The notes below the pieces were generated by a model. It did no database searches. It saw only the letters and a program-made list of their open reading frames with translations, and had not been told where the DNA came from. 64,000 bases of DNA from Bacteroidia bacterium (GTDB lineage: Bacteria; Bacteroidota; Bacteroidia; Chitinophagales; Chitinophagaceae), in NCBI GenBank assembly GCA_030426665.1, contig JAUHYD010000007.1, forward strand, positions 124,001-188,000, given 5' to 3'. How positions within the stretch are numbered: the stretch's first letter is position 1; every line of letters starts with the position of its first letter. A program made the translations under genes and the position numbers. Shown here piece by piece: positions 50,436 to 56,540 of this stretch.

Positions 50436-50451
50436 GTTAATACAAATAAAC

Positions 50452-50483
50452 AAAGCGGGCATGTTGTAGCACATGCCCGCTTT
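50452..50483. terminator. Bidirectional terminator between rpoD and rtcB
   Basis: A 13-bp perfect stem AAAGCGGGCATGT/ACATGCCCGCTTT with a six-base loop. It serves both convergent genes. Confidence 0.92.
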
Positions 50484-50503
50484 GTGTTTTATGCAAAGCG
50501 ACG

Positions 50504-51898
50504 TTAGTTCCCGTCCATCTTAACAATCTTCGGCGTAAAAGAGGCGACGACATTTATAAGTGTCGATTGTGCGTCGATTACTTGATGTATGTTTTTATAG
50601 GCATGTGGCGCTTCATCCAACCCTCCGCCTATAAGCGTGACACCATTATCTGCCAGAATTTTAGTCAACTCGTTTTTGGTAATACTATTCTTTGCCATTG
50701 TACGAGACAATAGTCTACCAGCTCCGTGAGACGCAGAGTTAAGTGCAGCTCGTTCGGCCTTTCCACTTACTATGAAACCGGGTGCCGTCATGGAGCCGGG
50801 AATGATTCCCAATTCTCCCTTACCAGCGGGCGTTGCTCCCTTTCGGTGAACGATTACATCTTTACCATCCAGCGTTTCTTTCCACGCAAAGTTGTGGTGA
50901 TTCTCGACCATCTTCAATGGCTGAATTTTAAAGTAGTCGGCTATCTTTTTGTGAATAGTATGGTGACAGGCGGAGGCATAGTCGCCGGCTAAATTCATAG
51001 ACAACCAATACTCCATCCCCTCCTGCGTATCCAGATCGAGCCAGGCAAGGTGCTTTGCTTCCTGAGGCAGCTTGCATTTCTCCATTGCAAGTTTAGTGTA
51101 GTGGCCTGCAATAGTTGCCCCCAATCCTCGTGACCCTGAGTGCGTGAGTAATGACATATACTTCCCGACAGGCAGCCCAAGCTCACTATCCGGTGATGCA
51201 ATATCAACCACACCAAACTCAGCAAAGTGATTGCCGGAGCCGGAAGTACCCAACTGTTTTACTGCTTTCTGTTTCAGCCGTTGCAGGAACGGCACCTCAT
51301 CGAATTCTTTACGATCCAGCACCTCGTGGTCAGTTGTGTCCTTAAACTCCTTACCAGCACCAAATAAAGTCTTTTCGTTGAGCAGCCGCATTAGCGACTT
51401 ATCGTTATCGGCAATGTAACGGGCAGGCATATCAAATACACTAAGACACATACGGCACCCAATGTCGACACCTACCGCATAGGGAATGACAGAATTAGCG
51501 GTAGCTAATACGCCACCAATAGGCAGACCATATCCCTTATGGGCGTCCGGCATTAACGCACCTGCAAGTGTGACGGGCAGCCTCATAGCAACATTCATTT
51601 GCTCCAATGCTCCGTCATCTATTTTGTCTTTACCGTATACTTCATATGGCTTTGCCTCGGGATTCAACGAAATTGTTGTGTCCGGCTTTTCGACCAGCTC
51701 CGCAGCAATTTTTCCTAAAATGGCATCATCAATATACTCCTCAGGGTTTGCTATCAGCTTGCCAAGTATGTATAACACCTCCTGCTCCGTGCTGTGCTTG
51801 TAGTTTTTCTGCATTACTTCCATGGCGATGGCTATCGCCTTAGACTGCGGGAACCCCAGCTTACGAAGGTCTTTTCCGTTTAATTTCAATTTAGACAT
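50504..51898 (-). CDS. rtcB: RNA ligase RtcB
   Basis: GTP- and manganese-dependent ligase joining 2',3'-cyclic phosphate or 3'-phosphate to 5'-OH RNA ends, used in RNA repair. It has GVDIGCRMCL (Cys/Asp metal site), ENHHNFAWKE and VHRKGATPAGKGELGIIPGSM, where the His is the guanylated residue. It ends VGGGLDEAPHAYKNI. From ATG 51898 it has 464 residues, the usual length. The frame continues to 52033, but that part is a Y-RNA-like element, so a longer start is wrong. It is the distal member of a module with a TROVE protein and four tRNA-like RNAs. Confidence 0.97.
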   Translation of the reverse strand: MSKLKLNGKDLRKLGFPQSKAIAIAMEVMQKNYKHSTEQEVLYILGKLIANPEEYIDDAILGKIAAELVEKPDTTISLNPEAKPYEVYGKDKIDDGALEQMNVAMRLPVTLAGALMPDAHKGYGLPIGGVLATANSVIPYAVGVDIGCRMCLSVFDMPARYIADNDKSLMRLLNEKTLFGAGKEFKDTTDHEVLDRKEFDEVPFLQRLKQKAVKQLGTSGSGNHFAEFGVVDIASPDSELGLPVGKYMSLLTHSGSRGLGATIAGHYTKLAMEKCKLPQEAKHLAWLDLDTQEGMEYWLSMNLAGDYASACHHTIHKKIADYFKIQPLKMVENHHNFAWKETLDGKDVIVHRKGATPAGKGELGIIPGSMTAPGFIVSGKAERAALNSASHGAGRLLSRTMAKNSITKNELTKILADNGVTLIGGGLDEAPHAYKNIHQVIDAQSTLINVVASFTPKIVKMDGN

Positions 51899-51913
51899 TT
51901 TATCAATTTTTTG

Positions 51914-52035
51914 AAATGAATGAGTAACAAGCGACAAGAGTATATGCTGCTCTACCACTGAGCTACGGGCAAAGCCCGACAGGATTCGAACCTGTGTCAC
52001 GCCGAAGAACCTCTTGTCTACGACATCATTCATTT
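51914..52035 (-). ncRNA. Y-RNA-like RNA D (YrlA type, permuted tRNA-like)
   Basis: A 122-nt element ending 15 bases before the rtcB ATG. A ten-base-pair terminal stem AAATGAATGA/TCATTCATTT closes it, then a second perfect stem GACAAGAG/CTCTTGTC. Inside, in order: the CUUCG motif, T arm ACAGG-TTCGAAT-CCTGT (51979-51995 on the plus strand), a closed acceptor-like hairpin CGGGC-TTT-GCCCG (51966-51978), and a D arm GCTC...GAGC. This is a circularly permuted tRNA in which the double stem replaces the anticodon arm, as in bacterial Y RNAs. AUGUCGUAG-N8 precedes the CUUCG box. Confidence 0.85.
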
Positions 52036-52076
52036 TCTTTAAAAGTATTAATATAATTTTTTACAAAAAGTAGCAT

Positions 52077-52203
52077 CGCCGGAGTAACATTCGGTAAGCA
52101 AACGTGTAAACCCGGTATATTCCGGAGCAGGACTCGAACCTGCACTTACTTCCTTCCGGAAGCTTTCAACCAACGAAGTATTGCTTAACTACGACATCCG
52201 ACG
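52077..52203 (-). ncRNA. Y-RNA-like RNA C
   Basis: A 127-nt element closed by CGTCGG/CCGGCG (one wobble), extendable by GTAG/CTAC to 52070-52211 and followed by a T run. It has AUGUCGUAG-N8-UACUUCG, an inner AAGCAA/TTTGCTT stem, T arm GCAGG-TTCGAGT-CCTGC (52127-52143) and a closed acceptor-like hairpin CCGG-AATATA-CCGG. The D arm is reduced. It lies between RNA D and RNA B. Confidence 0.75.
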
Positions 52204-52225
52204 AAAACTACAAAACCAATAACTA

Positions 52226-52333
52226 ACTATGAATAAAGCAATGATAGACATGAGTGTAGCAGGATTCGAACCTGCGACCCCGTTTCCGGGTTAGTCCACG
52301 AAGTAACACATGCCTACGGCATTTATTCATAGT
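52226..52333 (-). ncRNA. Y-RNA-like RNA B
   Basis: A 108-nt element with a perfect 12-bp terminal stem (TTTATTCATAGT at 52322-52333 against ACTATGAATAAA at 52226-52237 on the plus strand). It carries AUGCCGUAG-N8-UACUUCG, a CCCGG-AAA-CGGGG hairpin and T arm GCAGG-TTCGAAT-CCTGC (52259-52275). No clear acceptor-like closed hairpin follows the T arm. It abuts RNA A directly (52333/52334). Confidence 0.75.
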
Positions 52334-52476
52334 AAATTCTGAAGCAACAGTCAAAATGAGCATGGGGACTCGCGTTGAGGATTTGCACCTCTCCCCTGCT
52401 TTACGCAGCGGCCCTACCCCCTTTAATTTGAGCGAAGTAGCCCATTTCTACGGCATTCGGAATATTATCAGTATTT
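52334..52476 (-). ncRNA. Y-RNA-like RNA A
   Basis: A 143-nt element nearest the TROVE gene. Its terminal pairing AAATACTGA/TCAGAATTT has one mismatch. It has AUGCCGUAG-N8-UACUUCG and a T-arm-like hairpin GAGG-TGCAAAT-CCTC (52377-52391) whose loop departs from TTCGAAT, so it is the most degenerate copy. A GGGGA...TCCCC pairing flanks it. The transcript is read with the TROVE gene. Confidence 0.65.
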
Positions 52477-52542
52477 ATTCAAAGAACATATTTTTAAAAA
52501 GCCGCCCTGCGAACCTCCCCCGGAATTGGGGGAGGGGCAGCT

Positions 52543-54060
52543 TTACAATTCCATTTCTCTAATTTGCTCTACAACAGTTGCTCCCTCATCGAGTGCGGCC
52601 AGCATATCAAATACCTTGTCGCTCCAGCCCGAAATAAGAAAGACATCATCTGCCTGTATGCTTATGGGCGTATTTCCATATCCGGCCAGGTCAAAGAGGT
52701 ATAGTTTAGCCCCCGGCGCAACCATCTTATATTTCCGCCATTCCTCTTGCAACCCTGTACCTCCGGCCCTGGCTTCATGAAGCTGACAGTCTGTGAACAA
52801 CATTACTTTGTCCATTACTATTCTCTTTTTACGCAAGTATTCAATTGCCAGGTATCCGTTCGTTGCATATCCCACTTCTCCCTCTCTACGATAAAATTCC
52901 TGCACATTTACCAATATCGAACGAGAGGGCATGTTAATCACTTTCCATTTGCTCCCAAACATACCGGTTATAGCTCTGCTGCATCTTGACTTCAATAACA
53001 TTGCCAATACCAGTCCTATATCGTACAACAGCACTTTGCTTTTTGGCGAAACAGGCTGTTGCATAGAAGCCGAAACATCGCATGCTATCAACACTCGGCT
53101 ATCATCGTTGAAGCCTTTAATGTTGGCTGCACTGGCGGCCAATGCTCGCTCTAATGCGTCAAGGATATATGGCACCGCCTCAGATTGTATCGATTTCACT
53201 TCTCTGAACGCTGCAACAAACCGAAATGGTAACTGACGGCTCCTTGCTACTTCCTCTGCACTTCCGATACGACTATTGACCCTGGTGATGCTATCCCATG
53301 ATACTCCGGCCTGAATAATATTTCTTAGGTTGCGCAGCAATGCCATGTACCCCAGCTTTCCACTATTTATCAGTTCCTCCCACTTTATGCGTACGGCTAT
53401 TGCTCTTTCTTCTTTTGTTTCAAAATTGTTTTGTCCAAGCCCTGACAACTCTGTCTCCCAAGTATATGCAGTTGACAATTTTCCGGCAGCAATCTTATTG
53501 AATACCGCCTGCTGCGCATCATCTTTTGCTTTCGGGTGTACCAGAAACAATGCGTCCTTTAAAGTGACGTCTGTCGCTCGGTTGTACTTTGAGAACTGAT
53601 ATTCGTCAAACCTGTTAAACGCATCGCCAAGGCCTTTCTGCACTTGTTTCGAAAGTCTGCCAAGTTTCTTGGTACCCTCCCGCTTGTTTGCCATTTGGTA
53701 ATATGCCAGCAACTCGGCGATTTCATCAGCTCTTTGAACAACGCTGCCCACTGTTTTCCTGACAATATTAGTTCCCGATGTTTGTTTTGCTAACTCAACA
53801 GAAAGCACCAACGGTATACTCCTCATGTGCATTTCAGAGCGGGCATATACCGCAAGGCGTGCAATAAACTCAGGATTATTCGTTTCCATCAGTTGCCTAA
53901 TCCGGTCAATACGCTCCGGAGATTTTTCATAAAAGTTATCGCTAAGACCCGCTGTAACAACAGCAGCATACAACTCCATTTCAGGGGTCAGTTTAGCGGC
54001 TTTTGCACCTTCATAATTAGTTATGGTTGTTGCGTTCCTTTTTAATAAATTGAATCTCAT
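52543..54060 (-). CDS. rsr: TROVE-domain Ro60-type RNA-binding protein (Rsr)
   Basis: Ring-shaped RNA-binding protein orthologous in architecture to Ro60/Rsr, which binds misfolded RNAs and Y RNAs. The HEAT-like TROVE domain covers about residues 10-310 (LYAAVVTAGLSDNFYEKSPERIDRIRQLMETNNPEFIARLAVYARSEMHMRSIPLVLSVELAK), and a vWA domain follows with MIDAS DVSAS at 328-332 (LIACDVSASMQQP). At 505 residues it is normal. It leads the unit rsr-Y RNAs-rtcB and is divergent from a WYL regulator. Two CGCAA dyads lie upstream, so induced expression is likely. Confidence 0.93.
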   Translation of the reverse strand: MRFNLLKRNATTITNYEGAKAAKLTPEMELYAAVVTAGLSDNFYEKSPERIDRIRQLMETNNPEFIARLAVYARSEMHMRSIPLVLSVELAKQTSGTNIVRKTVGSVVQRADEIAELLAYYQMANKREGTKKLGRLSKQVQKGLGDAFNRFDEYQFSKYNRATDVTLKDALFLVHPKAKDDAQQAVFNKIAAGKLSTAYTWETELSGLGQNNFETKEERAIAVRIKWEELINSGKLGYMALLRNLRNIIQAGVSWDSITRVNSRIGSAEEVARSRQLPFRFVAAFREVKSIQSEAVPYILDALERALAASAANIKGFNDDSRVLIACDVSASMQQPVSPKSKVLLYDIGLVLAMLLKSRCSRAITGMFGSKWKVINMPSRSILVNVQEFYRREGEVGYATNGYLAIEYLRKKRIVMDKVMLFTDCQLHEARAGGTGLQEEWRKYKMVAPGAKLYLFDLAGYGNTPISIQADDVFLISGWSDKVFDMLAALDEGATVVEQIREMEL

Positions 54061-54111
54061 GTCGTACTGTTTTTATTGTTTCCCTTGATGATGATGCAAA
54101 GCTCCTACAGC

Positions 54112-54134
54112 ACTGCGCAACACAATTGCGCAGT
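54112..54134. promoter_or_regulatory. Operator-like dyad proximal to rsr
   Basis: Perfect inverted repeat ACTGCGCAA-CACAA-TTGCGCAGT, 52 bases from the rsr start. It matches the second dyad at 54233-54255. Confidence 0.72.
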
Positions 54135-54232
54135 AAAATATTTTTTCAAATAATTTTATTTACATTTCATATAGCGTTATTTATCAACAAATTACAAAGC
54201 GGCATTTTCAAAAAAAATTTCATCGAAAACCA

Positions 54233-54255
54233 ACTACGCAAATACATTGCGCAGA
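54233..54255. promoter_or_regulatory. Operator-like dyad proximal to the WYL gene
   Basis: ACTACGCAA-ATACA-TTGCGCAGA, the same 9-5-9 layout as the 54112 site with two stem positions changed, 40 bases before the WYL gene ATG. Together they are candidate sites for the WYL regulator. Confidence 0.7.
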
Positions 54256-54295
54256 TGAGCATTTCCTTTACCTTTATAATTCAAACAATTAAAGT

Positions 54296-55369
54296 ATGTC
54301 GCTGAATAAACTTGCCCTTATCCGATACAAAGTCATAGACACATGCCTGCAAAACAGACGCAGAAAATGGACACTTGAAGGTCTGGTAGATGCATGCTCT
54401 TATGCACTGGAAGAGTATGAAGGAATAAAAAAAGGTGTCAGCAAGCGAACGGTACAGCTGGACATACAGAATATGCGTAGCGACAAACTAGGCTATAACG
54501 CGCCAATAATCGTACAGGACAAACGTTACTATACCTATGAAGACAAGAACTATAGCATAACTAACATTCCGCTTACCGGACAAGATATGAAGACACTGGG
54601 AGAGGTAGTGGAGGTACTTAAGCAATTTAAAGGTTTTGACTATTTCCAAGAGCTAACTATGATGGTCAGTAAACTGGAAGATAAAATACACAGGCAGCAA
54701 AATAAAGGGCGCTCCTACATCAACTTCGAGAAAAACGATCTTTTAAAAGGATTGGAGTACATAACGCCGATACATAAGGCTATTGCGAACAAACAAGTGT
54801 TATCAATCAACTACCAATCATTTAAAGCCCGGTCTCCATCACCAATTACGTTCCACCCCTATCTACTCAAAGAGTACCGTAACAGATGGTTTGTTCTGGG
54901 CAATAAAGCTAAGCGGACGAAGTTTGAAATTATTACAATTGCGTTAGACAGGATAGCCGGTATTGAAGAAATGCCAATTGAAGACTACCATGAGAATACA
55001 GAAATAGACCTTGACACCTATTATGATGACGCTCTTGGCGTCACGAAAAATCCTGGACAGAGACCAACGAATGTAGTTTTCAAAATGGATCACTCTATGG
55101 CCCCCTATATACTTACAAAGCCCATCCATTCTTCACAGGTTCTACTAAGGAGTGATGAAGAAGGAGTGCTCTTCAGTATAAAGGTTATCTGGAATTTTGA
55201 ACTGGAACGGGAATTAATGGGATTTGCAGAAGCAATAACTGTGCTTGCTCCAAGGAACCTGGTAAAAAGGCTTAAGCATAAAATTGTTCAAATGTATTGG
55301 AAGTATGAGTCGCCTGAAGCAAAGGATAACAACAAGGCCGCATTACAAAACCGCAATGGTCAAGGTTAG
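54296..55369 (+). CDS. WYL-domain transcriptional regulator
   Basis: A 357-residue regulator: N-terminal winged-helix/HTH region (KWTLEGLVDACSYALEEYEGIKKGVSKRTVQLDIQNMRSDKLGY), then the WYL domain (PYLLKEYRNRWFVLGNKAKRTKFEIITIALDRIAGIE), and a WCX-like C-terminal domain. WYL domains sense nucleic acids or nucleotide ligands. It is divergent from the rsr-Y RNA-rtcB unit, with two dyads in between, suggesting it controls that unit and itself. In enterobacteria the equivalent control is by the sigma-54 activator RtcR, so the regulator type here differs. Confidence 0.92.
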   Translation: MSLNKLALIRYKVIDTCLQNRRRKWTLEGLVDACSYALEEYEGIKKGVSKRTVQLDIQNMRSDKLGYNAPIIVQDKRYYTYEDKNYSITNIPLTGQDMKTLGEVVEVLKQFKGFDYFQELTMMVSKLEDKIHRQQNKGRSYINFEKNDLLKGLEYITPIHKAIANKQVLSINYQSFKARSPSPITFHPYLLKEYRNRWFVLGNKAKRTKFEIITIALDRIAGIEEMPIEDYHENTEIDLDTYYDDALGVTKNPGQRPTNVVFKMDHSMAPYILTKPIHSSQVLLRSDEEGVLFSIKVIWNFELERELMGFAEAITVLAPRNLVKRLKHKIVQMYWKYESPEAKDNNKAALQNRNGQG

Positions 55370-55409: not shown

Positions 55410-56540
55410 ATGCAATTCGATATACAAGCCACCGACGATAAGTCTTCTGCCCGTGCAGGTACACTGTCAACCGGACACGGTGATATACAAACACCTATTT
55501 TTATGCCGGTAGGCACTGTGGGTAGTGTAAAAGGTGTCACTCAGCAACAATTGAAAGAGCAGGTAAATGCTCAGATAATCCTCGGCAATACTTACCACCT
55601 GTACCTTCGTCCCGGAACAGACATCATAGAGCAGGCGGGTGGCTTGCATCAGTTCATTGGTTGGGACAGACCTATACTCACCGATAGTGGTGGCTATCAG
55701 GTGTTTTCTCTGGCTGCTAATAGAAAGATTAAGGAAGAAGGAGTTGTTTTTCAATCGCATATAGATGGTTCCCGACATTTGTTTACGCCCGAAAATGTCA
55801 TTGACACGCAACGTAGTATTGGCGCAGACATTATTATGGCATTTGATGAATGTCCGCCCTACCCTTCTGAATATGCGTACGCCAAAACATCAATGGAGTT
55901 GACGCACCGTTGGTTAGCCAGATGTGTGCAGCAAATGAGCAACACAGAACCTAAGTATGGATACGAACAATCTTTGTTCCCCATCATTCAGGGCAGCACT
56001 TATAAAGACTTACGCAAAGCATCGGCACAGTTTGTTGCAGATATGGACTGCGATGGCAACGCCATCGGTGGTTTGTCAGTGGGAGAGCCGGAGGAGATGA
56101 TGTACGAAATGTGTGCGCTATGCTGTGAGAACCTCCCTATAGACAAACCCCGCTATCTGATGGGCGTAGGTACGCCCTGGAATATCCTGGAAAATATTGC
56201 CCTTGGCATAGACATGTTTGACTGCGTTATGCCTACGAGAAACGGCAGAAACGGCATGCTGTTTACCTGGAATGGTGTAATAAACATTAAGAATAAAAAA
56301 TGGGCCACAGACTTCTCACCAATAGATAGTGAACTTAATTGCTTAACCAGCCAACACTACTCTAAAGCCTATCTCCGACACCTTTTCGCAGGGCATGAGC
56401 TATTGGGCCTTACCATTGCCAGCATACACAATCTGACGTTCTACCTTGACCTTGTAAATGTGGCAAGACAACATATTGTTGCAGGAGACTTCTCATCGTG
56501 GAAGACCGAAATGATACCTATCCTAAAAAACAGACTATAG
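55410..56540 (+). CDS. tgt: tRNA-guanine transglycosylase (queuine tRNA-ribosyltransferase)
   Basis: Exchanges G34 in GUN-anticodon tRNAs for preQ1 on the path to queuosine. Motifs: MPVGTVGSVKGVT, ILGNTYHLYLRPG, LTDSGGYQVFSL (nucleophile region), GGLSVGEPEEMM, YLMGVG and MFDCVMPTRNGRNG. 376 residues is standard. The C-terminal zinc-ligand pattern of bacterial Tgt (CxCxxC) is not obvious here and is replaced by LNCLTSQHYSKAYLRHLF, with a retained His in SQHYSKAYLRHLF. Gene start at 55410 is clean. It is downstream of the WYL gene but probably separate. Confidence 0.95.
   Translation: MQFDIQATDDKSSARAGTLSTGHGDIQTPIFMPVGTVGSVKGVTQQQLKEQVNAQIILGNTYHLYLRPGTDIIEQAGGLHQFIGWDRPILTDSGGYQVFSLAANRKIKEEGVVFQSHIDGSRHLFTPENVIDTQRSIGADIIMAFDECPPYPSEYAYAKTSMELTHRWLARCVQQMSNTEPKYGYEQSLFPIIQGSTYKDLRKASAQFVADMDCDGNAIGGLSVGEPEEMMYEMCALCCENLPIDKPRYLMGVGTPWNILENIALGIDMFDCVMPTRNGRNGMLFTWNGVINIKNKKWATDFSPIDSELNCLTSQHYSKAYLRHLFAGHELLGLTIASIHNLTFYLDLVNVARQHIVAGDFSSWKTEMIPILKNRL

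Follow-up and report, generated by a model that had tools for sequence, protein, structure and literature searches.

A putative WYL-controlled unit of a Ro60-type protein, four Y RNAs and the RNA ligase RtcB in a Chitinophagaceae bacterium

Y RNAs are known as mimics of tRNA, several of them can occur in one genome, and the link of Y RNAs and Ro60 with the RNA ligase RtcB is already known. In Salmonella, tRNA fragments with 2',3'-cyclic phosphate ends switch on the rsr-yrlBA-rtcBA operon through the regulator RtcR, and this operon already has two Y RNAs, yrlB and yrlA (PMC7790460). The accessible text of the same source suggests that the tRNA-like domain of YrlA might inhibit an anticodon nuclease, and it gives the partnership with PNPase in Deinococcus radiodurans as the sole bacterial function of Rsr and Y RNA to have been studied. 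In Anabaena, the dedicated repressor TrcR governs a silent trn operon of 26 tRNA genes and rtcB, which is induced by translational stress (PMC10272220, in its accessible parts). WYL regulators of defence systems are predicted to sense nucleotides and RtcR uses a CARF domain (PMC4012209, accessible parts), and TROVE and RtcB are counted among RNA-repair components in a survey of jumbo phages (PMC7824862, accessible parts). The present analysis concerns a unit of a TROVE (Ro60-type) gene, four Y RNAs, rtcB and a WYL regulator gene in a 64,000-nucleotide (nt) stretch of DNA, the window, from a Bacteroidia bacterium of the Chitinophagaceae (GCA_030426665.1, contig JAUHYD010000007.1, positions 124,001-188,000 of the forward strand).

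The unit is probably a WYL-controlled RNA-damage operon, from which Rsr, four Y RNAs and RtcB would be made together upon damage to RNA, probably to tRNA. The genes, the four RNAs with their shared covarying bulged stem, the conservation of the unit and a palindromic, putative operator are evident in the sequence itself. On the minus strand, the TROVE gene is followed by a 644-nt spacer (51899-52542) and rtcB, and the WYL gene diverges on the plus strand:

54296..55369, plus strand: WYL-WCX regulator (Pfam PF13280, 43.3 bits, and PF25583, 36.7 bits; WYL models of PADLOC)
52543..54060, minus strand: TROVE/Ro60-type protein (Rsr-like) of 505 amino acids (Pfam PF05731, 104 bits; alignment A1)
50504..51898, minus strand: RtcB RNA ligase of 464 amino acids (Pfam PF01139, 272 bits)

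The layout given in the original prediction, an earlier reading of the same DNA, holds: a TROVE-vWA gene, a four-element spacer and rtcB on one strand, with a divergent WYL gene. The locus is confirmed as real and the interpretation placed on it is partly supported; the proposed RNA-repair neighbourhood is among the points upheld. The TROVE protein scores 23.8 bits against the Ro60 vWA profile, under the cut-off of 27.7, and carries the vWA MIDAS motif DVSAS (DxSxS in all ten rows of alignment A1). Its profile matches in the PDB are 9l5y/9kop and 1yvp, with a weak match to 2nvo. In an alignment to PH1602, RtcB retains the Asp, Cys and His residues that we take to be metal-binding and the His that we take to be guanylylated. 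The list of open reading frames pushes the 5' end of rtcB to 52033, across the fourth RNA; an ATG beginning at 51898 fits better as its start. A single TROVE gene and a single RtcB gene were detected in the genome.

The four RNAs of the spacer are numbered E1 to E4 in transcript order. R1, a covariance model built from 26 minimal elements, none of them from the window, recovers all four in a search of 572,693 bases (E 2.2e-10 to 4.7e-8):

52336..52463, minus strand: Y RNA E1, with the bulged stem, a domain closed by GGGG...CCCC and a T-arm-like hairpin (loop TGCAAAT); R1 45.7 bits, E 6.6e-9
52229..52330, minus strand: Y RNA E2, with the bulged stem, a hairpin and a T-arm (GCAGGTTCGAATCCTGC); R1 43.9 bits, E 1.9e-8
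52076..52204, minus strand: Y RNA E3, with the bulged stem, a hairpin, a T-arm and another hairpin; R1 42.5 bits, E 4.7e-8
51915..52034, minus strand: Y RNA E4, with the bulged stem, a T-arm, a closed acceptor-like stem and a D-arm; R1 51.1 bits, E 2.2e-10

By eye, the spacer holds four copies of one frame, which runs from an outer stem through UGYCGUA, an inner stem and UACUUCG (UUCUUCG in E4) to a variable head, followed on the 3' side by the inner-stem partner, UURCY and the outer-stem partner. Common to E1-E4 is a bulged stem of Y-RNA type, with the bulged nucleotide in its outer helix, in which R-(bulged U)-G-Y pairs with R-C-Y and covaries; from work on eukaryotic Y RNAs, we take this stem to be the Ro-binding site. 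The original prediction described four tRNA-like elements. Four structured RNAs stand, as R1 finds them, but T-arm and D-arm occur together only in E4. E2 and E3 combine a T-arm with other hairpins, the T-arm-like hairpin of E1 has an unusual loop, and the permuted order of T-arm, acceptor-like stem and D-arm is absent from these three. By its predicted fold, E4 is a circularly permuted tRNA without an anticodon arm, the sole such form in the window. Folding energies compared with shuffles mark E2, E3 and E4 as stable (z -3.6, -2.5 and -2.2), and ARAGORN calls no tRNA at the locus. The proposed search with a YrlA covariance model bore out one element in part: E4 reaches 43.7 bits (E 3.3e-7) against the Rfam YrlA model (RF02553), whose gathering threshold is 69, and E1-E3 have no YrlA match in the Rfam search of the window. 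E4 is therefore YrlA-like and is not filed as YrlA; in 16 related loci, Rfam gave no YrlA match at gathering.

A wider detector of the Y-RNA frame, which scores stem pairing, was run on 62 TROVE loci and marked 170 places on the sense strand and 8 on the antisense strand, with a mean of 1.4 in mononucleotide shuffles. A first detector, which demanded C after the variable base (TG[CTA]CG; 154 sense, 1 antisense), overlooked TGYTG loci and was rejected. Because the detector chose elements partly by stem pairing, a pair that it leaves unscored and the R1 searches are cleaner evidence. Among the 26 minimal elements, the unscored pair is C-G in 13, U-A in 12 and broken in one. Over their whole structure, there are 154 two-sided changed cells versus 45.8 when shuffled, and the covariation signal is lost when the partner strand is slid. 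R1 was also run over 60 genomes, the window's own included, with stricter filters that recovered three of the window's four elements; it matched all six genomes with TROVE and none of the 54 without. The Y-RNA-like identity proposed for the four elements is supported by R1, by covariation and by this co-occurrence. Far from failing covariance models and being unconserved, all four match R1 and have conserved counterparts.

Five of the 170 places were dropped because of where they lie: two are upstream of TROVE, one falls within TROVE, another within rtcB, and one belongs to a divergent-TROVE locus. The heads of the other 165 elements fall into classes A (permuted tRNA, 54), T (other heads with a T-arm, 53), D (minimal, at most 84 nt, 31), C (GGGG/CCCC-closed, 21) and N (none of these, 6), under the rules of a rough script that labels near-alike elements of L111 and L125 differently. 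The script places E1 in class T, yet by eye it is nearest to the class C elements of relatives. All 54 class A elements fold into an outer stem, bulge, inner stem, T-arm, acceptor-like stem with a short loop and D-arm, a structure proposed by RNAalifold. In this predicted form, class A corresponds to a tRNA that has been opened at its anticodon arm, the point at which it joins the Y stem. Selection of the class used the T- and D-arms and not the acceptor stem, whose eight pairs form in 27/35 to 54/54 sequences with 11-26 two-sided changes each, counts that stand without a shuffle control. By eye, elements in a few relatives (for example L107 at 3845 and L101 at 4103) keep the anticodon arm, the Y stem seemingly replacing the D-arm. 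Isoacceptor-specific mimicry was considered in doubled-tRNA alignments for two genomes; the best partners spread widely, margins were often small, and such mimicry is not claimed.

TROVE is present in 33 of 392 genomes of the phylum and in 35 of 298 genomes of the order, the window's own included in both. Stretches were fetched from 23 and 27 of the remaining 32 and 34 genomes, respectively, omitting 9 and 7 with partial or distant TROVE matches, and from four relatives. Together with seven earlier loci and the window, they make up the 62 loci, of which 49 have a close TROVE (45-65% identity, or the window's own). In these 49, the detector finds a median of four elements (range 0-7). The two loci with zero elements (L007 and L008) have R1 matches upstream of TROVE, and every one of the 49 carries at least one element by detector or R1. 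This survey of RNA copy number in relatives bears on the suggestion that the unit is expanded. The count of four RNAs holds, but at least two elements occur in 43 of the 49 loci, the Salmonella operon already has two Y RNAs according to the accessible text (PMC7790460), and only one RNA of the window has the complete permuted form. Thirteen loci with TROVE at 27-33% identity yield zero detector elements after one was dropped, and three of the thirteen (L114, L116 and L126) show weak R1 matches (E 1e-4 to 6e-4). The order of the parts varies. In L083-L086, L089 and L090, the layout of WYL, TROVE and Y array is as in the window, followed by a distant RtcB (29-32% identity); L087 has WYL, a palindrome, rtcB, a second palindrome, TROVE and Y RNAs.

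The regulatory part of the proposal rests on a palindrome, CTGCGCAA-N5-TTGCGCAG, of which two copies lie between the WYL and TROVE genes:

54234..54254, strand not assigned: putative palindromic operator, WYL-proximal, one mismatch, 41 nt before the WYL ATG
54113..54133, strand not assigned: putative palindromic operator, TROVE-proximal, exact arms, the right arm over the likely -33 element of the TROVE promoter

These are the window's two matches at up to two mismatches, versus 0.01 expected from dinucleotide shuffles. By eye, the right arm of the TROVE-proximal copy stands at the -33 position, with TTTG about 20 nt further on, under what we take to be the -33 promoter consensus of Bacteroidota. 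The WYL promoter is less clear by eye, and a sigma-70 promoter scan gave one site versus 7.7 expected, nothing useful. Sites were counted in 46 clade-1 loci with upstream sequence, at up to three mismatches and up to 420 nt from the TROVE start. Of the 26 loci with an adjacent WYL gene, 24 have such a site, as do 9 of the 20 without one, against 0.0008 per mononucleotide-shuffled upstream sequence. Sites also stand ahead of Y arrays (L004, L074, L076, L078 and L080) and ahead of rtcB (L009, L080 and L083). In genomes G003 and G024, where TROVE and rtcB are on separate contigs, a site precedes rtcB by 38 nt; the RtcB of G003 is full-length and 69% identical to the window's, and that of G024 comprises the first 105 residues (49% identity) up to the contig end. 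An operator ahead of rtcB on other contigs would tie the parts by regulation and not by position alone.

The presence of a site goes together with that of a WYL homologue. Among 17 genomes without WYL in the fetched stretch, searched with G180 (adjacent WYL) as control, a WYL homologue (47-60% identity) was found in 8/8 with a site, counting G323, whose site has four mismatches, and in 1/9 without. This homologue lies about 3 kilobases (G159) and 6 kilobases (G260) upstream of TROVE and farther off in others. In a search of 16 genomes for the palindrome elsewhere, the window's own genome has one more place, with two mismatches. Away from TROVE, there are many places with two mismatches, and places with at most one include G003 (C82) and G029 (C11). 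Of four of the latter kind that were read, those in G556 and G598 are within metabolic genes by eye and appear to be chance occurrences. The palindrome also precedes, at a distance of several hundred bases, the TROVE genes of a distant clade (L120 1281, L121 1361 and L122 1149, in oriented coordinates), where no Y RNAs were detected, so the operator may serve another operon type there. The suggestion of a different control from that of enterobacteria is upheld by the conserved palindrome of the WYL gene and by the RtcR family (PF06956), which was found in 0/10 genomes tested; RtcA (PF01137) was likewise found in 0/10, and E. coli controls were positive for both.

Taken together, these features would describe an operon under a WYL protein that binds the palindrome. 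Repression is the most likely mode of action, since the likely -33 element of the TROVE promoter, and probably that of the WYL gene itself, falls under a site; the protein could possibly be an activator. Repression would be lifted when the WYL protein binds an RNA-derived ligand, much as the CARF domain of RtcR senses tRNA fragments in Salmonella. The Y RNAs would seat on Rsr through the bulged stem, several of them supplying it with different heads. The tRNA-like heads might draw tRNA-binding enzymes or occupy tRNA-cutting nucleases, and RtcB would rejoin 2',3'-cyclic-phosphate and 5'-OH ends.

Several observations weigh against this proposal. E1 folds no better than shuffles (z 0.27), and about eight false detector matches are expected in the 62 loci, judged by the antisense strand. 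RtcB lies within the fetched stretch in only 28 of the 49 close loci, and six of those 28 carry a distant RtcB (29-32% identity). Ten of the 46 loci have neither an adjacent WYL gene nor a TROVE-proximal site at up to four mismatches, one of them being L004 with its site before the Y array; WYL-palindrome control is therefore not universal. The nine siteless genomes come mostly from two lineages (five from family f8 and three from genus g49), so the 1/9 above, in which G574 is the one exception, does not amount to nine independent cases. Finally, a PDB search at E 0.01 found no relative of the WYL protein, which makes its ligand a guess.

Since the window unit resembles the Salmonella operon, though under a third kind of regulator, and cousins with tRNA arrays, described below, resemble the Anabaena system, a tRNA damage response is most likely and decay with PNPase is its main rival. 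In that rival account, which is possible without being probable, the unit serves RNA turnover and not repair: the Y RNAs tether Rsr to PNPase and gate structured RNA for decay, as in Deinococcus, and RtcB is a mere neighbour under the same stress control. The D. radiodurans partnership is the only studied function of a bacterial Rsr-Y RNA pair, as far as the accessible text goes (PMC7790460), and 21 of the 49 loci lack RtcB in the fetched stretch while none lacks a Y RNA element. However, the palindrome precedes rtcB on another contig in G003 and G024, and RtcB was found in 6/6 TROVE-positive genomes versus 3/8 TROVE-negative genomes tested, so the link of TROVE with RtcB is more than one of position.

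The tRNA damage response also draws on relatives in which tRNA genes join the unit. ARAGORN was applied to 21 of the 62 loci and to 11 longer stretches. In L098, L101, L103, L105, L107 and L109 (genomes G570, G561, G565, G493, G507 and G574, respectively), it called 9, 12, 14, 15, 14 and 6 genes. Some of its calls are Y RNAs mistaken for odd tRNAs, such as Ala(tgc) and Ile(tat) in L107, and with calls over Y RNAs left out the counts are 9, 11, 13, 14, 12 and 6 tRNA genes. These genes lie between TROVE and rtcB, interleaved with the Y RNAs or after them, and by eye the arrays are alike across species. Of the 47 tRNA matches in genome G507, 12 fall within the locus, including one that overlies a Y RNA, and the remainder therefore looks like a normal set. 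In this genome, the only one compared, 11 array tRNAs are 59-74% identical to the same-anticodon housekeeping partners recovered; housekeeping tRNAs of the same anticodon in G507 and the window's genome have a median identity of 84% (27 pairs, 68-97%). The array tRNA-Leu(tag) is without the long variable arm in five of the six loci and so may not serve translation in the normal way. None of the six loci has a TROVE-proximal site at up to four mismatches, which makes them cousins of the window unit with a different arrangement.

Other RNA-processing genes accompany the palindrome in G260, which has sites and is judged Flavobacterium-like from its locus. An exact palindrome lies 13 kilobases off, before a calcineurin-like phosphoesterase and an exonuclease gene; an RNA ligase (RLIG1 domain) is next to these, and the intervening DNA holds tRNA genes and DUF434/DUF5616. 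This RNA-repair island (L143 3326-19044 in G260, and also L151) holds the RLIG1-type ligase, the RNase_T exonuclease, the phosphoesterase and DUF434/DUF5616, together with tRNA genes, RtcB, Y RNAs, TROVE and several palindromes.

A bolder form of the tRNA damage response can be held only tentatively. Such loci would be inducible tRNA-defence arrays: on sensing damaged RNA, the WYL protein would release a battery of tRNA look-alikes, bound to Rsr and opened at differing positions. In some heads, the anticodon arm would be replaced by the Ro stem; in others, the D-arm would be replaced and the anticodon arm kept. Some lineages would add a second, divergent tRNA set, with one or two tRNAs per amino acid served. 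The look-alikes would titrate anticodon nucleases or outlast them, with RtcB meanwhile mending the cut tRNAs, and each Y RNA would counter its own kind of attack on tRNA.

The same arrays could instead belong to selfish or defensive cargo, a phage-derived tRNA-protection cassette of decoy RNAs, spare tRNAs and ligase kept against tRNA-cutting toxins or phage defence. Among 50,697 phage records, 89 contain TROVE, as do 30 contigs of IMG/VR (L254-L283), viral by label and with phage status taken as labelled, of which 23, some near-duplicates, have R1 matches (E up to 0.1). The patchy spread of TROVE (6 of 60 genomes, the window's own included), the tRNA arrays of the six loci and the naming of TROVE and RtcB among jumbo-phage RNA-repair parts in the accessible text of PMC7824862 agree with such an origin. 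However, identity is at most 35.1% among the 15 listed of the 89 phage records, the IMG/VR contigs are phage by label alone, and the genes around the window locus look chromosomal by eye; cargo of this kind is an unlikely explanation. That the elements are decayed or permuted tRNA genes with no Rsr-linked function, as their tRNA-like T-arms and D-arms might suggest, is very improbable given the common non-tRNA stem with its strong covariation, the co-occurrence with TROVE and the 31 minimal forms among 165, which at no more than 84 nt are too short for a tRNA-like domain.

The borders of the unit are marked by one further feature, which parts rtcB from a convergent sigma-70 gene, so that the unit probably ends there:

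50450..50485, strand not assigned: strong inverted repeat resembling a terminator, between rtcB and the sigma-70 gene

A GC-rich hairpin with five T (52496-52537, minus strand) lies directly 3' of the TROVE stop codon and may be a terminator or attenuator ahead of the Y RNAs. It is not among the matches of a terminator scan of the window; similar hairpins without the T run lie 3' of TROVE in L003 and L014. The next gene after WYL (55410-56540, plus strand) resembles a tRNA-guanine transglycosylase by eye.

Although the parts are of known kinds, the version seen here seems to be undescribed in its dedicated WYL regulator, in the DNA switch and in the variety of the RNA array. In the openly licensed literature, covered mostly at abstract level, no report was found of a WYL-controlled TROVE/RtcB unit, of the WYL palindrome, of Y-RNA arrays in Bacteroidota or of mixed arrays of Y RNAs and tRNAs, which does not establish their absence in print. 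The words 'wyl' and 'rsr' occur 0 times in the text of PMC10272220, and 'trove' and 'ro60' 0 times in that of PMC4012209; a further candidate, PMC13174449, concerns something other than a WYL/TROVE/RtcB system, as far as its accessible parts go. The unit bears on the question of what bacteria gain from having Ro60 and Y RNAs next to RtcB. With its arrays of dissimilar Y RNAs, joined in some relatives by tRNA genes, the idea that Y RNAs act by mimicking tRNA can be put to a direct test in cultivable Bacteroidota. A role in triggering lupus autoimmunity has been proposed for the Ro60 orthologues of gut Bacteroidota, and their natural RNA partners are therefore of wider interest.

Among known systems, Deinococcus radiodurans offers a TROVE-vWA protein with a Y RNA and a weak profile match (2nvo); its Rsr, with a role alongside PNPase, is likened here by description and not by locus or Y RNA letters (PMC7790460, accessible text). 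The window TROVE is very distant from the NCBI Rsr equivalog (38.8 bits, cut-off 900). E4 aligns to positions 1-114 of the YrlA model RF02553, covering the outer stem, AUGC-like loop, T-arm, acceptor-like stem and D-arm. The TrcR regulon of Anabaena resembles the relatives with tRNA arrays and, unlike the regulator found here, TrcR is described in the accessible text as an RHH repressor with another operator (PMC10272220). In layout, the unit is analogous to the rsr-yrlBA-rtcBA operon of Salmonella, which, according to the accessible text, has a Ro60 orthologue, Y RNAs (one with a tRNA-like domain), RtcB and a divergent regulator (PMC7790460). Both units carry rtcB and rsr on one strand; unlike the Salmonella operon, that of the window has a WYL regulator with a palindromic, putative operator and four Y RNAs with unlike heads in place of two.

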